Shown: positions 861 through 53,673 of the stretch, piece by piece
How positions within the stretch are numbered: position 1 is the stretch's first letter
Layout: each line of letters starts with the position of its first letter
Source: Flavobacterium terrisoli
Lineage (GTDB): Bacteria > Bacteroidota > Bacteroidia > Flavobacteriales > Flavobacteriaceae
Direction of reading: 5' to 3'
Assembly (NCBI RefSeq): GCF_030167905.1
Contig: NZ_JARGNA010000005.1
Coordinates: 248,001-312,000 of the forward strand
DNA: 64,000 nucleotides
The notes under the pieces: model-generated
What the model saw: only the letters and a program-made list of their open reading frames with translations
The model's database searches: none
Told to the model about the DNA's origin: nothing
Program-made: the position numbers and the translations under genes

Positions 861-3800
861 ATGAAGTATTTTTTGTTCAGAATTGGTCTATTCACCGCAT
901 TGCTGTTTTTGGTAACGAATTGTTCGTCAACCAAAAAAAAGAAGACAACTGCCGTTGTCAAACCGGTTACTCCTGAAGTGGTTGAAGACAACAGCCCATA
1001 CATAAAGACCGAACGAAAAATTTTTTTCCCCGAAACAGAAGCCGAAACCAAATGGGTTGACAGCATTTATGGCCAAATGACTTTTGATGAAAAAGTCGGG
1101 CAGTTGTTTATGATTGCCGCTTATTCCAATAAAGATACTGTTCACACCAATGCCGTTGAAAAGTTAGTCCGTGATTATAAAATCGGTGGCCTGATTTTCT
1201 TTCAGGGCGGACCAAAACGCCAGGCACGTTTAACCAATAAATACCAATCGTTAGCCAAAGTGCCATTGTTTATAGGAATCGACGCCGAATGGGGCATGAG
1301 CATGCGTTTGGATTCTACTTTCCGTTATCCTTTCAACATGACTTTGGGTGCCATTAAAGATTTAAAATTGGTGGAAAAAGTGGGTACAGCCATGGGTTCC
1401 GAAAGCAAAAGAATGGGTGTTCACTTCAACTTTGCACCGGTTTTAGACATCAATACCAATCCGAAAAACCCAATTATCGGTTACCGTTCTTTTGGGGAAA
1501 ATAAAGTCAATGTTACCGAACATGCAATTGCCTTAATGAACGGTTCGCAGGGACAAGGCGTTTTTTCAACCGGAAAACATTTCCCGGGACATGGCGACAC
1601 TTCAACCGATTCCCACAGTACATTGCCTGTGGTGAATGCGTCTTTGGCGCACCTTGACAGTGTGGAATTGTATCCGTATAAAAGAATGTTTGACCAAGGA
1701 TTGGTTTCCGTGATGGTAGCGCATTTGAATGTGCCGAGTCTGGAACCAAGAGCAGGTTTTCCAACGTCAATCTCACCTGCAGTCGTAACCAATTTGCTGA
1801 AAAAAGAGCTCGCTTTTGACGGTTTGATTTTTACCGATGCGTTGAATATGAAAGGCGCAGCCAATTTCCTTAAGCCCGGAGATATTGACTTGGAAGCGTT
1901 TTTGGCCGGAAATGACATTTTGCTTTTTGCCGAAAACGTACCGTTGGCCATGGAGAAAATCTGTGTTGCTTATCAGGACAGTGTTTTTACCGAAAGCCGT
2001 TTGGCAGAATCGGTGAAGAAGATTTTGCGCTACAAATACAAAGCCGGTCTGAACAAATACCATCCAATTGAAGGCATCAATCTGTTTAATGATTTGAATC
2101 CGAAGTCGAATGAAACGCTGCAGTACGAACTGTATGAAAATGCGGTTACGGTCGTAAAAAATGAAGGCGAGATATTACCGATTAAAAATCTGAACCAAAA
2201 GATTGCCTATGTAAAATTGGGCGATGACAGCAACAGTTCTTTTGTCAATACCTTGAAGAAATACACCGAAGTGACTGAAGTTGCGGATGCCAATTTAGAT
2301 TCACTAATGACCAAATTGACCGATTTTGAAACCGTAATTATTGGTTACCACAAATCGGATAAATCCTGGTGGAGATCACCGGAATTGATGGTGAATGAAT
2401 TGCAGTTGATTGATTCGATTGCTCAAAAGAAGAAAGTAATCATTGATTGTTTTGCCAAACCGTATTCACTTTCCAAAATTTTAAATTTTGACGCGATTGA
2501 AGGCATCGTAGTTTCTTATCAAAACGGCGATATCGCTCAGCAAGTTTCAGCTGAATTGATTTTTGGTGCGGTTGATGCCAAAGGATTGCTACCGGTTTCC
2601 ATCAATAGTTTTTTCAAAGCCGGCGATGGTATAACTACGCGTAAATTGAATCGTTTGGGATTCAGTACACCGGAAAGCGTCGGGATGAGTTCGGAGAAAT
2701 TAAGCCAAATAGAAAAGCTCGCTCAAAAAGCCATCGATGGCAAAATGACTCCCGGAATGCAGGTTTTGGTGGCCCGAAAAGGAAAAGTAATTTACCAGAA
2801 ATCTTTTGGGAAACAAACCTATGATGGTGACGTGAAAGTGAAAAATTCCGATTTGTATGATGTGGCTTCGTTGACCAAAATGGTGGCAACCTTGCCCAAT
2901 GTGATGCAACAGTATGACCAAAAGAAAGTGACTTTAGATACAAAGCTTGATGAAATGCTGCCCATTTTCAGAGGTTCCAACAAGCAACACATGACTTTTA
3001 AAGAATTGATGTCACACTACGGCAGAATGCAGGCGTGGATTCCGTTTTACAAAGCGACTGTTGATTCGGCTAAAGTGCCGATGGAAAAATACTACCGAAA
3101 AATAAACACCGAAGGCTTTAGCAAACGCGTTTCGGATAGTTTGTACCTGCGCGATGATTACCACGACAGCATCATGAAGCAAATCATCAACAGTCCGTTG
3201 ATTGAGAAAAAAGAATACAAATACAGTGATTTTACGTTTATCATCCTCAAACAATATTTGGAAAGAACCACAAACAAATCGTTGGACGAATTGACCTATG
3301 AGAATTTCTACAAGACTTTGGGGATGAACAATACCCTGTACAATCCGTTGTCAAGATTTGACAAAAGTGTGATTGCGCCAACCGAAATCGACACCTATTT
3401 CCGTCACGATACCATTCAGGGTTATGTGCACGATATGGAAGCCGCGATGGAAGCCGGAGTAGGCGGGCATGCCGGGATTTTCTCCAATGCGATGGATGTG
3501 GCCAAAATGATGCAGTTGTACCTGCAAAAAGGAAATTATGGCGGTATTCAATATTTTGCTCCTGAAACTTTTGATACGTTCAATACCTGTCATTTCTGCG
3601 CCGAAGGCAACCGTCGTGGTTTAGGCTTTGACAAACCGCAGATTAGCGGCGCCGGACCAACGTGTGGTTGTGTTTCGATGTCGAGTTTTGGACATACCGG
3701 TTTTACGGGAACCATTGCCTGGGCTGATCCTGAAACCGAAATTGTTTATATTTTCTTATCGAACAGGACTTATCCTGATTCTAATTTGCCAAACACCTTG

Positions 3801-47540: not shown

Positions 47541-47575
47541 CTGACGCAACCTAATCAGGATTTTAATATCTTTAT
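47541..47575 (+). promoter_or_regulatory. candidate ECF-type promoter of triplet lipoprotein 1
   Basis: CTGACGCAACC (47541-47551), 17 bases, TCTTTAT (47569-47575), 18 bases before the ATG. The same arrangement precedes the two paralogues. It does not fit the TAnnTTTG housekeeping consensus; a -35 AAC-type and -10 TCKT-type pair at 16-17 bases is the layout of ECF sigma promoters. Confidence 0.55.
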
Positions 47576-47593
47576 ATTGTCAAAACAAACAAT

Positions 47594-49336
47594 ATGAGGA
47601 AAATCAATACCTTTTTGTGTTTACTACTTTTGGTAGTTTCATTCTCCGCCTGTGAATCCAATGATGATTCTAATAGTAACGATCAAAACGACGATACTTT
47701 CGCTGAAAACTTCGGGAGTGAAGTCTCAAGAAACTTCATCGGTCAAATCGTCGGCACAGACAATCAACCTTTACAAGGTGCAACTGTACAAATAGGAACT
47801 TCTACTGTACAAACCGATCTAAATGGTGTTTTTATCATTAATGGCGCCAATGTGCATGAACGCTTTGCCTATATCACGGTAACCAAAGCCGGTTATATTG
47901 ATGGTTCACGGGCTATGGTTCCGACAAACGGAATGAACAATATAAAGATTATGTTGATTCCCAATACACCATTGGAAACCATACAATCGGGAGTTCCGAG
48001 TGAAGTAGTCATGCCAAATGGAACTAAAGTGGTTTTTGACGGTGCTTTTCAGGATGAGAATGGATTGGATTATTCCGGTTCGGTTCAGGTCGCGATGTTC
48101 CATTTATTGCCAAGCGATGAGAATATCAGTAAATTAATGCCGGGCATGTTATACGCCCAAACTCAAAGCAATGAAGAAGCGGTTTTGCAAACTTTTGGCA
48201 TGCTTAATGTTGAATTACGCGGCAGTGCCGGACAAAAATTAAATATCAAAGAAGGTCATACCGCAGAAATAACTTTAAAGATTGACGATAGTCAAATAGG
48301 AAGTGCTCCAAATTCAATTCCGTTATGGCATTTTGATGAAGCCAAAGGCTATTGGAAAGAAGATGGCGTAGCGACTAAAGTGGGTAATAAATATATGGGA
48401 GAAGTGTCTCATTTTTCGTGGTGGAATTGCGATGCTTCATTTCCAATAATTAATTTAACCGTAACCTTGGTCGATAGTAATGGGAATTCATTGCCTAATG
48501 CAGGAATTGGGTTGGTTGCCAATGGCATTAGTTACAATAATTCAGCGATGGGCCATACAGACAATAATGGAAGTGTTTCAGGTCTTGTTCCTTCCAATCA
48601 AACAATGACTTTAAATGTTTATCAAGAATGTGGTATTGTTTTCACGACAACCATTGGCCCGTTTAATAATGACACTGTAGTTCCAATTACATTGCCCAAT
48701 TCATCAGTAATTATATCAAAGATTAATGGTTCTCTATTAAAATGCAATGGATCAAATGTAACCAATGGTTATATTGTACTCTCAAAAAATGGTGTTGAAG
48801 AAATTATAAATGTTACTAATGGAACTTTTAGTTTTAGCACAATGTTCTGTGCTGGAGCAACCTCTTTCACGCTGAATGCGATTGATATTGATAATCTTCA
48901 GGCGGTACCAACCAGCACTCACACAATAGCCACGCCTATTACCAATGTTGGCAATTTAACTGCCTGTAATTCTATTACAGAATATCTATATTATAAATTA
49001 GATAATAATCCTGTGAAATATATATTTTCGAATAAAGGCGGTGGGTATAATTCAGCTAGCTTGCCTTTCACTGCCTGGGGTTATGATTATTCTACAGGCG
49101 CCAGTTTGTTTGTAATCGGTTACAGCCTGGTTCCGGGAGTATATGACAGTAGTGTTTTTCAAATTGATCAATTAGGAGGCGCTTATGTTTATGCAAACGA
49201 AAACATTACTTTCAATTTATCCAAATTTGGAAACATTGGACAGCCCATACAGATGACATTGGCAGGAACTTTTGATGATCAATATGGTGTTAATCATACC
49301 GTTACTGCGACCATCAATGTTATAAGAAATCAATAG
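47594..49336 (+). CDS. triplet lipoprotein 1: carboxypeptidase-regulatory-like domain plus variable C-terminal half
   Basis: 580 residues. The lipobox is SFSAC with Cys20, followed by ESNDDSNSN, an acidic stretch like the surface-export signal known for flavobacterial lipoproteins. Residues about 45-115 are a carboxypeptidase-regulatory/CarboxypepD_reg-like fold (GQIVGTDNQPLQGATVQIG ... KAGYIDGSRAMV). Residues about 120-285 are a conserved beta domain with a central LMPGMLYAQT and GYWKEDGVATKVGNKYMGEV. The C-terminal half is predicted beta-sandwich and diverges strongly from the two following paralogues, ending HTVTATINVIRNQ. Probably a surface-exposed binding protein; ligand unknown. Confidence 0.82.
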   Translation: MRKINTFLCLLLLVVSFSACESNDDSNSNDQNDDTFAENFGSEVSRNFIGQIVGTDNQPLQGATVQIGTSTVQTDLNGVFIINGANVHERFAYITVTKAGYIDGSRAMVPTNGMNNIKIMLIPNTPLETIQSGVPSEVVMPNGTKVVFDGAFQDENGLDYSGSVQVAMFHLLPSDENISKLMPGMLYAQTQSNEEAVLQTFGMLNVELRGSAGQKLNIKEGHTAEITLKIDDSQIGSAPNSIPLWHFDEAKGYWKEDGVATKVGNKYMGEVSHFSWWNCDASFPIINLTVTLVDSNGNSLPNAGIGLVANGISYNNSAMGHTDNNGSVSGLVPSNQTMTLNVYQECGIVFTTTIGPFNNDTVVPITLPNSSVIISKINGSLLKCNGSNVTNGYIVLSKNGVEEIINVTNGTFSFSTMFCAGATSFTLNAIDIDNLQAVPTSTHTIATPITNVGNLTACNSITEYLYYKLDNNPVKYIFSNKGGGYNSASLPFTAWGYDYSTGASLFVIGYSLVPGVYDSSVFQIDQLGGAYVYANENITFNLSKFGNIGQPIQMTLAGTFDDQYGVNHTVTATINVIRNQ

Positions 49337-49340
49337 TAAA

Positions 49341-49365
49341 AACTCCCGATACAATTAGGGCTTTG
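49341..49365 (+). terminator. degenerate terminator after triplet lipoprotein 1
   Basis: ACTCCCGATACAATTAGGGCTTT resembles, with several changes, the strong hairpins after triplet genes 2 and 3. Only about three to five pairs remain, so termination here may be weak. Confidence 0.35.
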
Positions 49366-49391
49366 TTGTTCAAAGTTTGGTTTTTATTTTT

Positions 49392-49425
49392 CTAGTGCAG
49401 CCAAATTAGGTTTTATTGTCTTTAT
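49392..49425 (+). promoter_or_regulatory. candidate ECF-type promoter of triplet lipoprotein 2
   Basis: CTAGTGCAGCC (49392-49402), 16 bases, TCTTTAT (49419-49425), 19 bases before the ATG. It is a slightly degraded copy of the motif before the other two genes. Confidence 0.5.
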
Positions 49426-49444
49426 GTAGTCAAATCAAATTATT

Positions 49445-51253
49445 ATGAAAAAAATCCATTCTCTTTTATGGTTACTATTTTTGGTAGTTTCATTCTCCGC
49501 CTGTGAATCTAATGATGATTCTAACGGTAACCAACAAAATGACGACACTTTCGCTGAAAACTTCGGTAATGAAACTTCGAAAGATTTTATCGGTCAGGTT
49601 GTCGACACAGACAATCATCCTATCCAAGGCGCAACCATACAAATAGGTTCTTCCACAGTACAAACCGATGTCAATGGTGTTTTTATAATTAATGGTGCCA
49701 ATGTGCATGATCGTTTTGCTTATATCACCGCAACCAAAGCCGGTTATATTAACGGTTCTCGCGCGATGGTGCCAACAGGCGGCAAAAACAATGTGAGAAT
49801 AATGTTGATTCCAAATACTCCGATAGAAACGATTCAGTCAGGAGTAACAAGCGAAGTAGCGATGCCAAATGGAACCAAAGTTGTTTTTGATGGTGCTTTT
49901 CAGGATGAGAATGGAATGGATTATTCCGGTTCGGTTCAGGTGGCGATGTTTCACTTATTACCAAGCGATGAAAACATCAGCAAATTGATGCCTGGCATGT
50001 TATACGCCCAAACCGAAACCAATGAGGAAGCGGTTTTAGAAACTTATGGCATGCTCAATGTTGAATTACGAGGCAGTGGCGGACAAAAATTAAACATCAA
50101 AGAAGGTCATACGGCTGAAATTGAAATGAAAATTGATGATGCTCAAATGACAACGGCTCCAAGTTCGATTCCGTTATGGCATTTTGATGAGGAAAAAGGT
50201 TATTGGAAAGAAGATGGCGTTGCGACTAAAGTTGGGAACAAATACGTTGGTGAAGTATCTCATTTTTCCTGGTGGAATTGTGATGTTCAGTTCCCAACAG
50301 TTAATTTCACTGCAACGATTGTTGATGTAAACAATAACCCGGTTTCTAATATCGCTGTAGCCATAGTTTTTGACTTTCCAAGAACAAATCTTACGGATGA
50401 CAGCGGAAATGTTTCAGGATTAATTCCGGCAAATCAGGTTATGACCCTAAACATCTATGATGTATGCGGTAATATTATTTATACTTCACAGATTGGGCCT
50501 TACTCACAGAACACTAATCTGGGTCAAATACAATTGCCTGGTTCGAGTATACAGACCGCTAATGTATCAGGTAGTTTGCTTAAATGTGACAATACAATCG
50601 TAACCAATGGTTATGTAGTACTTAAAAACGGCAATAGGATATTAATATCCGGGTTAGATAATGGAAATTATGATTTTACTACTGTTACTTGTTCGGGTTC
50701 AAATAATTTTACGATTGAAGGATTTGATTTTGATACATTACAGAGTACAGGAGAGTTAAATTATCAGTTTGAATTTCCTGAAACACATATTAATGCATTG
50801 CAAGCCTGCAATGCGATAACTGAGTATATTACGTTTAATATAAATGGAGAAAATACCATAGTCACCGGTAACATCAGTTCACAAATATTTTTGAATACTG
50901 TGACTTATGGAAATAATATTTTCGCAAACCAGATGACAATTTATGCCAATTATGGTAATGTTCCCGGAGGTGGTGCAATACAAACTCCGGGTGTAGCTAT
51001 TGAATGCGGAAGCACGATTCCTGGAAATTATACCTTAAATAATACAAGTGTCAGGATAAGCACCCAACCGAGCAGTACTCCTAATCAATATTTTTTTATT
51101 TATGGACCACCGGAAATATCCAATTATAATTTTAGGATTATTAAGTTTGGGGCTGTTGGAGATTATATTGATGTTTCATTTACAGGAGACATTGAAATAC
51201 TAGGAGTTTCTTACCTTGTTAATGGTATAGCCCATGTGATAAGGGATCATTAA
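49445..51253 (+). CDS. triplet lipoprotein 2: carboxypeptidase-regulatory-like domain plus variable C-terminal half
   Basis: 602 residues. Lipobox SFSAC (Cys20) then ESNDDSNGNQQNDD. The first 285 residues are nearly identical to its neighbours (GQVVDTDNHPIQGATIQIG, ARGSGGQKLN-type block, GYWKEDGVATKVGNKYVGEV and HFSWWNCD). Beyond that the sequence is related only in scattered positions (SGSLLKCDNTIVTNGYVVL versus equivalents) and ends NGIAHVIRDH. The pattern suggests tandem duplication with gene conversion in the first half and free divergence in the second. A strong terminator follows. Confidence 0.82.
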   Translation: MKKIHSLLWLLFLVVSFSACESNDDSNGNQQNDDTFAENFGNETSKDFIGQVVDTDNHPIQGATIQIGSSTVQTDVNGVFIINGANVHDRFAYITATKAGYINGSRAMVPTGGKNNVRIMLIPNTPIETIQSGVTSEVAMPNGTKVVFDGAFQDENGMDYSGSVQVAMFHLLPSDENISKLMPGMLYAQTETNEEAVLETYGMLNVELRGSGGQKLNIKEGHTAEIEMKIDDAQMTTAPSSIPLWHFDEEKGYWKEDGVATKVGNKYVGEVSHFSWWNCDVQFPTVNFTATIVDVNNNPVSNIAVAIVFDFPRTNLTDDSGNVSGLIPANQVMTLNIYDVCGNIIYTSQIGPYSQNTNLGQIQLPGSSIQTANVSGSLLKCDNTIVTNGYVVLKNGNRILISGLDNGNYDFTTVTCSGSNNFTIEGFDFDTLQSTGELNYQFEFPETHINALQACNAITEYITFNINGENTIVTGNISSQIFLNTVTYGNNIFANQMTIYANYGNVPGGGAIQTPGVAIECGSTIPGNYTLNNTSVRISTQPSSTPNQYFFIYGPPEISNYNFRIIKFGAVGDYIDVSFTGDIEILGVSYLVNGIAHVIRDH

Positions 51254-51260
51254 TACAGAT

Positions 51261-51290
51261 AAAAGCCCCGATTCATTCGGGGCTTTTTGT
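51261..51290 (+). terminator. rho-independent terminator after triplet lipoprotein 2
   Basis: AAAGCCCCGA (51262-51271), loop TTCAT, TCGGGGCTTT (51277-51286), more Ts. The core is identical to the terminator after triplet gene 3. Confidence 0.95.
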
Positions 51291-51311
51291 TTATTCCTTT
51301 TTCTTATTTTT

Positions 51312-51346
51312 CTGACGCAACCAATATGACTTTTTTCTATCGTATA
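51312..51346 (+). promoter_or_regulatory. candidate ECF-type promoter of triplet lipoprotein 3
   Basis: CTGACGCAACC (51312-51322), 17 bases, TCGTATA (51340-51346), 21 bases before the ATG at 51368. Its position inside a longer upstream frame argues for the 51368 start. Confidence 0.55.
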
Positions 51347-51367: not shown

Positions 51368-53116
51368 ATGAAAAAAATCAATTCTCTCTTGTGTTTACTA
51401 CTTTTGGCAGTCTCTTTTTCAGGTTGCGAGCCAAATGATTACAGCAACCATAATTCCGAACCTAATGACGAAACGTTTACTCAAAACTTTGGAAATGTTG
51501 TCCATCGGGATTTTATCGGCCAGATAGTCGATACAGATAATAATCCCATACAAAATGTAACCATTTCAATTGGTGATGCAACAGTCGAAACCGATGTCAA
51601 TGGTGTTTTTATGATCAATGGCGCCAGTGTGCATGAACAATTCGCTTACATCAAGGCAACCAAAGCCGGTTATATTGATGGATCGCGCGCTATGGTTCCA
51701 ACATCGGGTAAAAACAATGTGAGGATAATGTTGGTTCCCAATACGCCATTGGAAACCATACAATCCGGTGTAACCAGTGAAGTGGCTATGCCAAACGGAA
51801 CCAAAGTTGTTTTCGATGGTGCTTTCCAGGACGAGGCTGGCAATAATTATTTGGGAAGCGTTCAGGTAACCATGTTTCATTTAGCTCCAAGCAATGAAAA
51901 TATCAACAAACTAATGCCAGGCATGTTATACGCCCAAACCCAAACCAATGAAGAAGCCGTTTTAGAAACTTTTGGTATGCTCAACGTTGAATTGCGTAGC
52001 AGTGCAGGGCAAAAACTAAATATCAAAGAAGGCCACACCGCTGAGATTACCATGAAAATAGATGATAGTCAATTAGCAACTGCACCGAGTTCAATTCCAT
52101 TATGGCATTTTGATGAGGAACGTGGTTATTGGAAAGAAGATGGCGTTGCAACCAAAGTGGGGAACAAATACGTAGGTGAAGTGTCTCATTTTTCTTGGTG
52201 GAATTGTGATGCTCCTTTTCCAACGGTTGCATTAACAGTTAACATAGTTGATTCCAATGGGAGACCACTGTCTAATATTGCTGTTGGCTTGACAGTAAAC
52301 AACCTATTTCTTAACGCAAGTATCGCCTATACAGATGATCAAGGTCAAGTTTCGGGTTTAATTCCTGCCAATGAAATACTCACGCTTCAATTGTACTCTG
52401 ACTGTGGTGTTTTTTATACTGCCACAATTGGGCCATTTAGTACAAATACAGTTTTACCGACAATTACAATTAATAATACAAACGTACAATCCACTCATAT
52501 TACAGGCGCTTTGTTAAAATGTAACAACAATAATGTAACCAATGGTTATGTTTTGCTTTTAAGAAATGGTGTAACTAGCTTGGCAACAATCACTAATGGT
52601 AATTTTAGTTTTTATGAAGTTTATTGCCCGGGTGATACCGCATTTTCACTCAAAGGATATGATGTAGAAAATTCAGAGATGACAGATGTTATTAACTACA
52701 ATTTTACACCTAACACCACTAATATTGGAAATATTCAAGCCTGTACAGTTGTTAATGAATTTATATCATACAGAATAGATAATGGCAATCCGGTTTTTCT
52801 TTTTGATAATTTGTATTTTTCTCTTGCGGCAGGAAATGTTGTTCAAATTGATGGTGAGCATTTATTTCAAAACAAAGTTTTACATATCCAAGGAGTAGCA
52901 GGTGGACCAAGCAATCCTGTTTTTGTAAATTATGTTATACAAGGCACTGATTTTGGTTATGTTCAATCCTCAAATGTTAATAATGATATCGTTTATGTTT
53001 TGAATGCCATTGGAAATCTTGGCGAAATGGTAGATATCACTTTCAACGGTACGTTTCATAATACCACTGGAATACACACCGTCACAGGATTAATCCATGT
53101 TCTTAGAGATAATTAA
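51368..53116 (+). CDS. triplet lipoprotein 3: carboxypeptidase-regulatory-like domain plus variable C-terminal half
   Basis: 582 residues from the ATG at 51368 (MKKINSLLCLLLLAVSFSGC); the frame extends upstream to 51287 but that part contains the promoter and terminator. Lipobox SFSGC then EPNDYSNH. The first half matches its two neighbours closely (GQIVDTDNNPIQNVTISIG, VTSEVAMPNGTKVVFDGAFQ, GYWKEDGVATKVGNKYVGEV). The second half is again divergent and ends GLIHVLRDN. Same inferred role as the other two. It shares its downstream terminator with the convergent gene. Confidence 0.82.
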   Translation: MKKINSLLCLLLLAVSFSGCEPNDYSNHNSEPNDETFTQNFGNVVHRDFIGQIVDTDNNPIQNVTISIGDATVETDVNGVFMINGASVHEQFAYIKATKAGYIDGSRAMVPTSGKNNVRIMLVPNTPLETIQSGVTSEVAMPNGTKVVFDGAFQDEAGNNYLGSVQVTMFHLAPSNENINKLMPGMLYAQTQTNEEAVLETFGMLNVELRSSAGQKLNIKEGHTAEITMKIDDSQLATAPSSIPLWHFDEERGYWKEDGVATKVGNKYVGEVSHFSWWNCDAPFPTVALTVNIVDSNGRPLSNIAVGLTVNNLFLNASIAYTDDQGQVSGLIPANEILTLQLYSDCGVFYTATIGPFSTNTVLPTITINNTNVQSTHITGALLKCNNNNVTNGYVLLLRNGVTSLATITNGNFSFYEVYCPGDTAFSLKGYDVENSEMTDVINYNFTPNTTNIGNIQACTVVNEFISYRIDNGNPVFLFDNLYFSLAAGNVVQIDGEHLFQNKVLHIQGVAGGPSNPVFVNYVIQGTDFGYVQSSNVNNDIVYVLNAIGNLGEMVDITFNGTFHNTTGIHTVTGLIHVLRDN

Positions 53117-53120
53117 ATAA

Positions 53121-53150
53121 AAAAGCCCCGATTCATTCGGGGCTTTTTTT
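53121..53150. terminator. rho-independent terminator after triplet lipoprotein 3
   Basis: AAAGCCCCGA (53122-53131), TTCAT, TCGGGGCTTT (53137-53146), T-run, A-run on the other side; also serves the leftward gene whose stop (53149-53151) lies in the T-run. Same core as at 51261. Confidence 0.95.
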
Positions 53151-53673
53151 ATCCTAAAACTTCACTGACTTCACTTTTCAGGAACGCCAGTGCCACATTG
53201 GTTGCGCCTTCATCCTGAAGTAAATTGCTTAGTATTTTTTCTCTTAGTTTATCTGCATCAACAACCGAAGTATCCGCAGTTGTTTTTCTGATGTGTTGAA
53301 TAATCGTGTTTTTTGCGGTCATGATGATTGTCCAACATTCATCAGTAATATAAACCTGTTGGGTCAGATTGTGCTCGAATTCCTGTTCGATATGGTGAAT
53401 CAACAAGTTTTGATAAGCTACTTTATCGTCATTTACCGGTGCTACTCTAATTAACAATTTCGCCGGATTGATGCGTTCCAAAAACAAAGCCATTCGCTCA
53501 TAAGCCTGCAAACGCAATGGCAAAGCGTGTTTCTGATTTTCCTTTTGTGAAATCCAACGGCGTGTGTGCTGTTGGTCTTTGAAATAACTGTCAAATAAAT
53601 AATACGCCACACCGCCCGTAATCAAAGCAGGTAAGGTGTAAAAAGCTAACTCAAGGATTTTATCTGTACTCAT
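53149..53673 (-). CDS. conserved protein with one N-terminal membrane helix
   Basis: 174 residues from the ATG at 53673 (MSTDKILELAFYTLPALITG). One transmembrane helix (about 8-27), then a charged cytoplasmic domain with helical character (RRWISQKENQKHALPLRLQA, AYERMALFLERINP, and a conserved-looking ITDECWTIIMTAKNTIIQHI). From memory, proteins like this are common in Flavobacteriaceae next to the UvrD gene. No function known. It diverges from the helicase gene. Confidence 0.75.
   Translation of the reverse strand: MSTDKILELAFYTLPALITGGVAYYLFDSYFKDQQHTRRWISQKENQKHALPLRLQAYERMALFLERINPAKLLIRVAPVNDDKVAYQNLLIHHIEQEFEHNLTQQVYITDECWTIIMTAKNTIIQHIRKTTADTSVVDADKLREKILSNLLQDEGATNVALAFLKSEVSEVLG

Follow-up and report, generated by a model that had tools for sequence, protein, structure and literature searches.

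Dma proteins are said to control vesiculation in Bacteroides. According to the available part of their description, the Dma anti-sigma factors of B. thetaiotaomicron have an N-terminal anti-sigma domain that one transmembrane helix and a long disordered tether join to a beta-barrel at the C-terminus; their cognate (Das) sigma factors belong to group ECF21 of the extracytoplasmic function (ECF) factors, and dma2 is one of three genes in its operon (PMC13088901). For the most part, ECF regulons have yet to be defined in Flavobacterium. The one mapped ECF-type promoter motif, SM6 of F. psychrophilum, is marked by a CGT box in its -10 element and has several targets belonging to the type IX secretion system (T9SS); according to the accessible portions of that paper, which also give TAnnTTTG as the sigma-A consensus, its authors could not tie SM6 to a single sigma factor (PMC9723704). 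Here we analyze a 64-kb stretch of the 3.5-Mb genome of Flavobacterium terrisoli (the window; position 1 is its first letter), in which three tandem lipoprotein genes, the triplet, are accompanied by a repeated two-block promoter motif. Sequence comparison ties this motif to a conserved recA-linked ECF operon encoding a probable Dma-like anti-sigma factor.

The original prediction placed the motif in front of all three genes. Its sequences and coordinates are correct and the motif is present at sites 1 and 3, but site 2 is decayed, and the second block is TATCKT, not TCTTTAT or TCGTATA. At site 1 (plus strand) the -35 element ACGCAACC (47544–47551, within CTGACGCAACC at 47541–47551) is followed after 15 bases by the -10 element TATCTTT (47567–47573), with the ATG of gene 1 at 47594. 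At site 3, on the same strand, ACGCAACC (51315–51322, within CTGACGCAACC at 51312–51322) is followed after 15 bases by TATCGTA (51338–51344, within TATCGTATA at 51338–51346), with the ATG of gene 3 at 51368. The two sites read ACGCAACC-N15-TATCTTT and ACGCAACC-N15-TATCGTA, sharing TATCKT 15 bases past the octamer; alignment with other genomes gives [C/T]ATC[T/C] as the conserved core of the second block. Site 2 (49392–49425, plus strand), CTAGTGCAGCC-N16-TCTTTAT, consists of CTAGTGCAGCC at 49392–49402 (octamer position 49395) and TCTTTAT at 49419–49425, upstream of the ATG of gene 2 at 49445; its AAC core is altered and its spacer falls one base short of that at the other two sites.

The octamer taken alone was rejected as a genome-wide enriched element, since ACGCAACC occurs 58 times in the F. 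terrisoli genome and its reversed control 96 times. The search pattern proposed with the original prediction, run in a near form (TCKTMT in place of TCKTWT, at a gap of 13–19), showed no enrichment either, with 2 matches and 2 in the control. Two blocks at a fixed spacing, in contrast, occur beyond chance. Across 61 genus genomes, ACGCAACC-N16-RTCTW has 115 matches, five of them in F. terrisoli, versus 18 for the reversed control. For ACGCAACC-N15-TATCTTT, which matches site 1 exactly, the counts in 150 genomes are 13 versus 0, two of the 13 being in F. terrisoli and one of these being site 1 itself. With the spacing left free, ACGCAACC-N6..26-ATCTA has 93 matches in 46 genus genomes versus 46 for the reversed control over all spacings: 48 of the 93 fall at spacing 16, ten at 15, five at 17 and 0–6 at each other spacing.

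The surroundings of each of the 58 octamers in the F. terrisoli genome were also inspected: 10 (site 3 included) lie outside long open reading frames (ORFs) and 48 inside. The pattern nRTCY at N16 follows seven of the 10 intergenic octamers, site 3 being a miss, versus one of the 48 within ORFs (Fisher test, 3e-6); this value is post hoc, because the rule was partly derived from the same sites, and the genus-wide counts are the fairer test. At the single in-ORF site (L020), the motif runs across the end of a gene that immediately precedes a DUF4136 lipoprotein gene.

Outside the triplet, the motif is associated with an ECF sigma factor operon. It precedes the recA-linked ECF operon in F. terrisoli and at all 25 loci compared from other genomes, where ACGCAACC is combined with an RTC block at N16 in 24 cases and at N15 in one; RecA peptides are encoded at every one of the 26 loci, that of F. 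terrisoli included. The layout is recA, lipoprotein, ECF sigma factor, anti-sigma factor. In F. terrisoli (locus L247 on contig C1, adjoining recA) the lipoprotein gene occupies positions 662–1069 of the locus, the ECF gene 1097–1648 and the gene of the 534-residue candidate anti-sigma 1645–3249, overlapping the end of the ECF gene. A protein of 486 to 628 residues follows the ECF factor in all 21 operons that were read further (own one included), and F is its last residue in 21 of 21. The F. terrisoli candidate has one hydrophobic helix (hydropathy is highest at residue 49, with a value of 2.08), a polar tether (79% of residues 81–294 are N, S, T, K, G, D, E, Q or P, a figure of composition and not a disorder prediction) and a sub-threshold match to the beta-barrel family PF13505 (7.7e-5, 23.4 bits, below the cut-off of 28.7); the same arrangement of helix and tether was seen in three further anti-sigmas looked at. 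Pfam gave nothing in the N-terminus of the anti-sigma and no family for the lipoprotein at the front of the operon.

A second operon of an ECF factor and a 515-residue Dma-like anti-sigma lies at C9:331500–337500 of the same genome (L248). Upstream of it are encoded a 441-residue lipoprotein whose end is Lcl_C-like and additional lipoproteins, and two ACGCAACC sites with a different -10 stand before it.

A weight matrix was built from the promoters of the recA-linked operon in 19 other genomes, with no triplet sequence and with the F. terrisoli operon left out, and was used to scan the window on both strands and, for comparison, 20 random windows. Site 1 scored 21.4 (rank 1 in the window), site 3 17.9 (rank 2) and site 2 2.7 (rank 595); in the random windows the top score was at most 19.7 and the second best never exceeded 16.1. 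Sites 1 and 3 fit this independent model and site 2 does not.

The genes behind the motif in F. terrisoli include several lipoproteins, a tetratricopeptide repeat protein and a rhodanese-family protein. A link to the T9SS had been suggested; it was not borne out, as no T9SS component was recognised among the downstream genes examined in this genome (three of eight had no Pfam match; gldN and porU were not looked up). The expectation that the motif would be found at other promoters held, both for other lipoprotein genes and for an ECF sigma operon. At 30 loci from the genus, an ORF starts within 120 nucleotides in 22 cases, and 18 of these 22 ORFs have a lipobox (by a simple pattern, L189 being doubtful), compared with 21 of 136 at random positions; a GTSKS-type ECF sigma factor lies downstream at eight of the 30 loci. 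A 163-residue lipoprotein follows ACGCAACC-N15-TATCTTT in three genus genomes (L177, L182, L184) and is likely another member of the putative regulon. Separately, paired copies of the motif, 168–180 bases apart on the same strand, were seen in five genomes (G006:C3:729665, G008:C2:769081, G015:C10:509695, G042:C1:1084396 and G060:C2:143211). Two such loci, L188 and L205, have no ORF of at least 60 residues starting within 120 bases, and a small RNA or a small protein could therefore lie there.

Among 79 members of the triplet family with readable upstream regions, GCAAC is present in 18; the block nATCY stands at N16 in 13 of these and at N15 in one, and at none of 19 other spacings tried. These counts bear on the notion that the likeness of the three sites is a non-functional leftover of gene duplication. 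The three genes are indeed paralogues, genes 2 and 3 being 60% and 59% identical to gene 1, respectively, the DNA in front of them is alike beyond the motif (a T-rich tract and an AAAC-rich leader), and site 2 has decayed; however, the spacing of the blocks is constant across species while the spacer sequence varies, and unrelated lipoprotein genes as well as the ECF operon carry the same motif. We regard duplication alone as a very improbable explanation.

Taken together, these sequence comparisons show a promoter class with a fixed spacing, with links to lipoprotein genes and an ECF operon, and with conservation across genomes. In our view, an ECF sigma factor with a region 4 of the GTSKS type probably uses sites 1 and 3 as promoters, the recA-linked factor being the likeliest candidate, and gene 2 is probably transcribed by read-through. 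The proposal that the promoters are of ECF type is supported by the AAC core of the -35 element, the fixed spacing, the TC-containing -10 element and the retention of the motif before family genes in other Flavobacterium species. Since the motif also precedes the operon of an ECF factor and a putative trans-envelope sensor, triplet genes 1 and 3 probably belong to the response of that sensor. At rest the sigma factor would be held by its anti-sigma, which would span the distance from the cytoplasm to the outer membrane by one transmembrane helix, a long polar tether and a barrel-like C-terminal domain. An event at the outer membrane or the cell surface would release the sigma factor, and the freed factor would act at GCAAC-N16-[C/T]ATC promoters, where it would transcribe the operon that encodes it and a group of lipoprotein genes that includes triplet genes 1 and 3. 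Gene 2 would probably be covered by transcription running on from gene 1, since both the gene 2 promoter and the terminator after gene 1 have decayed. The identity of the sigma factor at the triplet, the action of the anti-sigma, the nature of the signal and the read-through are what we infer here; the envelope or surface signal that had been suggested fits with the probable membrane-spanning anti-sigma.

Several observations weigh against this assignment. GCAACC-N16-RTCY, that is, the pattern without ACG, is not enriched across the F. terrisoli genome (22 versus 22); 61 of the 79 family members have no GCAAC upstream; and the motif precedes a family gene in 16 of 30 genomes with an ECF factor of the L064 (recA-linked) or L071 type versus none of six without (p 0.024), which is weak agreement in 36 hand-chosen genomes with kinship not corrected for. 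Site 3 taken alone is not beyond chance in a 64-kb scan, because the top score exceeded 17.9 in four of the 20 random windows, and its -10 element by itself scores 2.0 in the matrix; its position before a family member supports it. Finally, the triplet -10 TATCTTT differs from the usual CATCTA of the operon, TATCTTTA at site 1 is one base off the sigma-A box, and GCAACC stands in front of two further ECF genes, L063 and L071.

The last point leads to the question of which ECF factor reads the triplet. The F. terrisoli genome has 14 Sigma70_r2 genes. Four ECF factors of this genome, L063, L064, L070 and L071, have GTSKS in region 4 in common and group together in a tree (support 0.977). The sites could be read by L063, L070 or L071, or by several factors with overlapping specificity, which we consider rather unlikely. 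Overlapping ECF regulons are held to be possible by the F. psychrophilum authors in the available part of their paper (PMC9723704), L063 is preceded by TGCAACC with CGTCT one base further on, and ACGCAACC stands before the lipoprotein gene of the L071 operon. Because L063 and L071 share GCAACC, it is the -10 block that singles out L064: the CGTC of L063 is at spacing 17, and ATC at spacing 16 is present neither in the L071 promoter nor in those of two orthologues with a visible GCAACC promoter (L218, L221), whereas the triplet sites match the register of the recA-linked operon.

A reading of the sites as ordinary sigma-A promoters, with TATCTTTA as a variant -7 box and GCAACC as an activator site or an upstream element, appears improbable. 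As originally predicted, the exact TAnnTTTG box is found at none of the three sites, which read TATCTTTA (site 1), TGTCTTTA (site 2) and TATCGTAT (site 3). TATCTTT does fit TAnnTTT, one member in the F. terrisoli genome (L029) reads exactly TATCTTTG, and TAnnTTTG is at promoter position in 12 of the 79 family members; but ten of these 12 do not have the GCAAC class, the base after TATCTTT is never G in the nine triplet-family promoters inspected, and in the operon promoters, which share this -35, the usual -10 is CATCT, with no sigma-A box. The rigid spacing also counts against sigma-A, and the recA-linked ECF factor remains the reading that we favour.

The triplet genes are all on the plus strand: gene 1 (47594–49336) encodes a 580-residue lipoprotein, gene 2 (49445–51253) a 602-residue paralogue and gene 3 (51368–53116) a 582-residue paralogue, for which the ATG at 51368 was chosen as matching the paralogues in place of the TTG at 51287 in the ORF list. 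The N-terminal half of the proteins is conserved and the C-terminal half has diverged; Pfam places a CarboxypepD_reg-like domain in them, below the cut-off and N-terminal in protein 1. Structure prediction gave a beta-rich model with several domains for protein 1 (mean predicted local distance difference test score, pLDDT, 81.8; predicted template modeling score, pTM, 0.48). The best PDB matches of this model are pilins, teneurins and adhesins (TM-score of at most 0.16 by query length), and it also matches carboxypeptidase-D-type domains over about 85 residues; from the fold we take only that protein 1 may be a stalk-like surface protein.

Strong terminator-like hairpins are predicted between genes 2 and 3 (51261–51288; fold of 51251–51313, -19.2 kcal/mol, z -5.5, as good in 0 of 200 shuffles) and after gene 3 (53119–53150; fold of 53114–53176, -20.2 kcal/mol, z -5.9, 0 of 200), both on the plus strand, whereas the stretch after gene 1 (49337–49391, plus strand) has no strong hairpin (fold of 49334–49396, -10.5 kcal/mol, z -1.0, 30 of 200). 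These hairpins and the decay of site 2 together suggest joint transcription of genes 1 and 2 from promoter 1, with a separate promoter for gene 3. The terminator of gene 1 and the promoter of gene 2 (49337–49425) look as if they had decayed together, as though gene 2 had come to need read-through.

The upstream regions of other family members fall into different types: of the 79, GGTAAC is found in 19, TTAATTTAG in 15, TAGGGTA without GGTAAC in three, TAnnTTTG in ten (12 with the two that also match the GCAAC class) and none of these in 15. A second, promoter-like class, GGGTAACA-N16-TATATA, seen at loci L303, L304, L306–L309, L311, L314 and L315 and in the upstream regions of 19 of the 79 members, precedes the lipoprotein family in marine Flavobacteriaceae. 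In eight genomes, chosen since their family member has or nears the GGTAAC type, N16-TATATA accounts for nine of 16 distinct GGGTAACA-N10..22-TATMTA sites, while the reversed control gave six matches; the nine sites precede five family genes, three other lipoprotein genes and one gene for another exported protein. No ECF gene was found beside these promoters by a simple pattern in 3-kb loci. It is conceivable, though we suggest it tentatively, that one stalk-like lipoprotein family moved between stress-type promoter classes across Flavobacteriaceae lineages: GCAAC-N16-ATC in Flavobacterium, GGGTAACA-N16-TATATA in marine genera, a TAGGGTA type in a few species and TAnnTTTG in others. Should each of the first two classes answer to a trans-envelope ECF system of its own, the sensing system would have been swapped while the cargo kept its surface-sensing control.

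An ECF promoter and a Dma-like anti-sigma are of a kind already known; the consensus, the link to the recA operon and the assignment of the triplet were not found among the literature matches listed, which is weak evidence of absence. The locus shares with SM6 the genus, an ECF-type -10 element and an ECF/anti-sigma pair among the targets, as far as the accessible text on SM6 goes (PMC9723704), but there is no CGT at sites 1 and 2 and the CGT of site 3 is out of register. An attempt to tie the motif to SM6 through the shared gene trhO/yceA failed, a GCAACC promoter being present in one of 30 genomes, that of F. terrisoli. PorXY-SigP of Porphyromonas gingivalis likewise represents ECF control of surface machinery in Bacteroidota; judging from the part of the report available, it governs the T9SS (PMC4800418), whereas no T9SS component was recognised behind the motif here. 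Loss of TamL in F. johnsoniae raised 31 of 47 outer-membrane lipoproteins, a result compatible with a lipoprotein stress response, with no sigma factor named in the available part of that study (PMC12045153). A close parallel in layout is Dma/Das, as partially described (PMC13088901): both have an ECF sigma factor beside an anti-sigma and the candidate operon appears to be arranged alike, although Bacteroides belongs to another bacterial family and the lipoprotein at the front of the operon here has no Pfam family. The accessible text on Dma/Das states no promoter motif for the Das sigma factors. The consensus and the candidate targets allow a direct test of whether a Dma-type sensor switches surface lipoproteins in flavobacteria.

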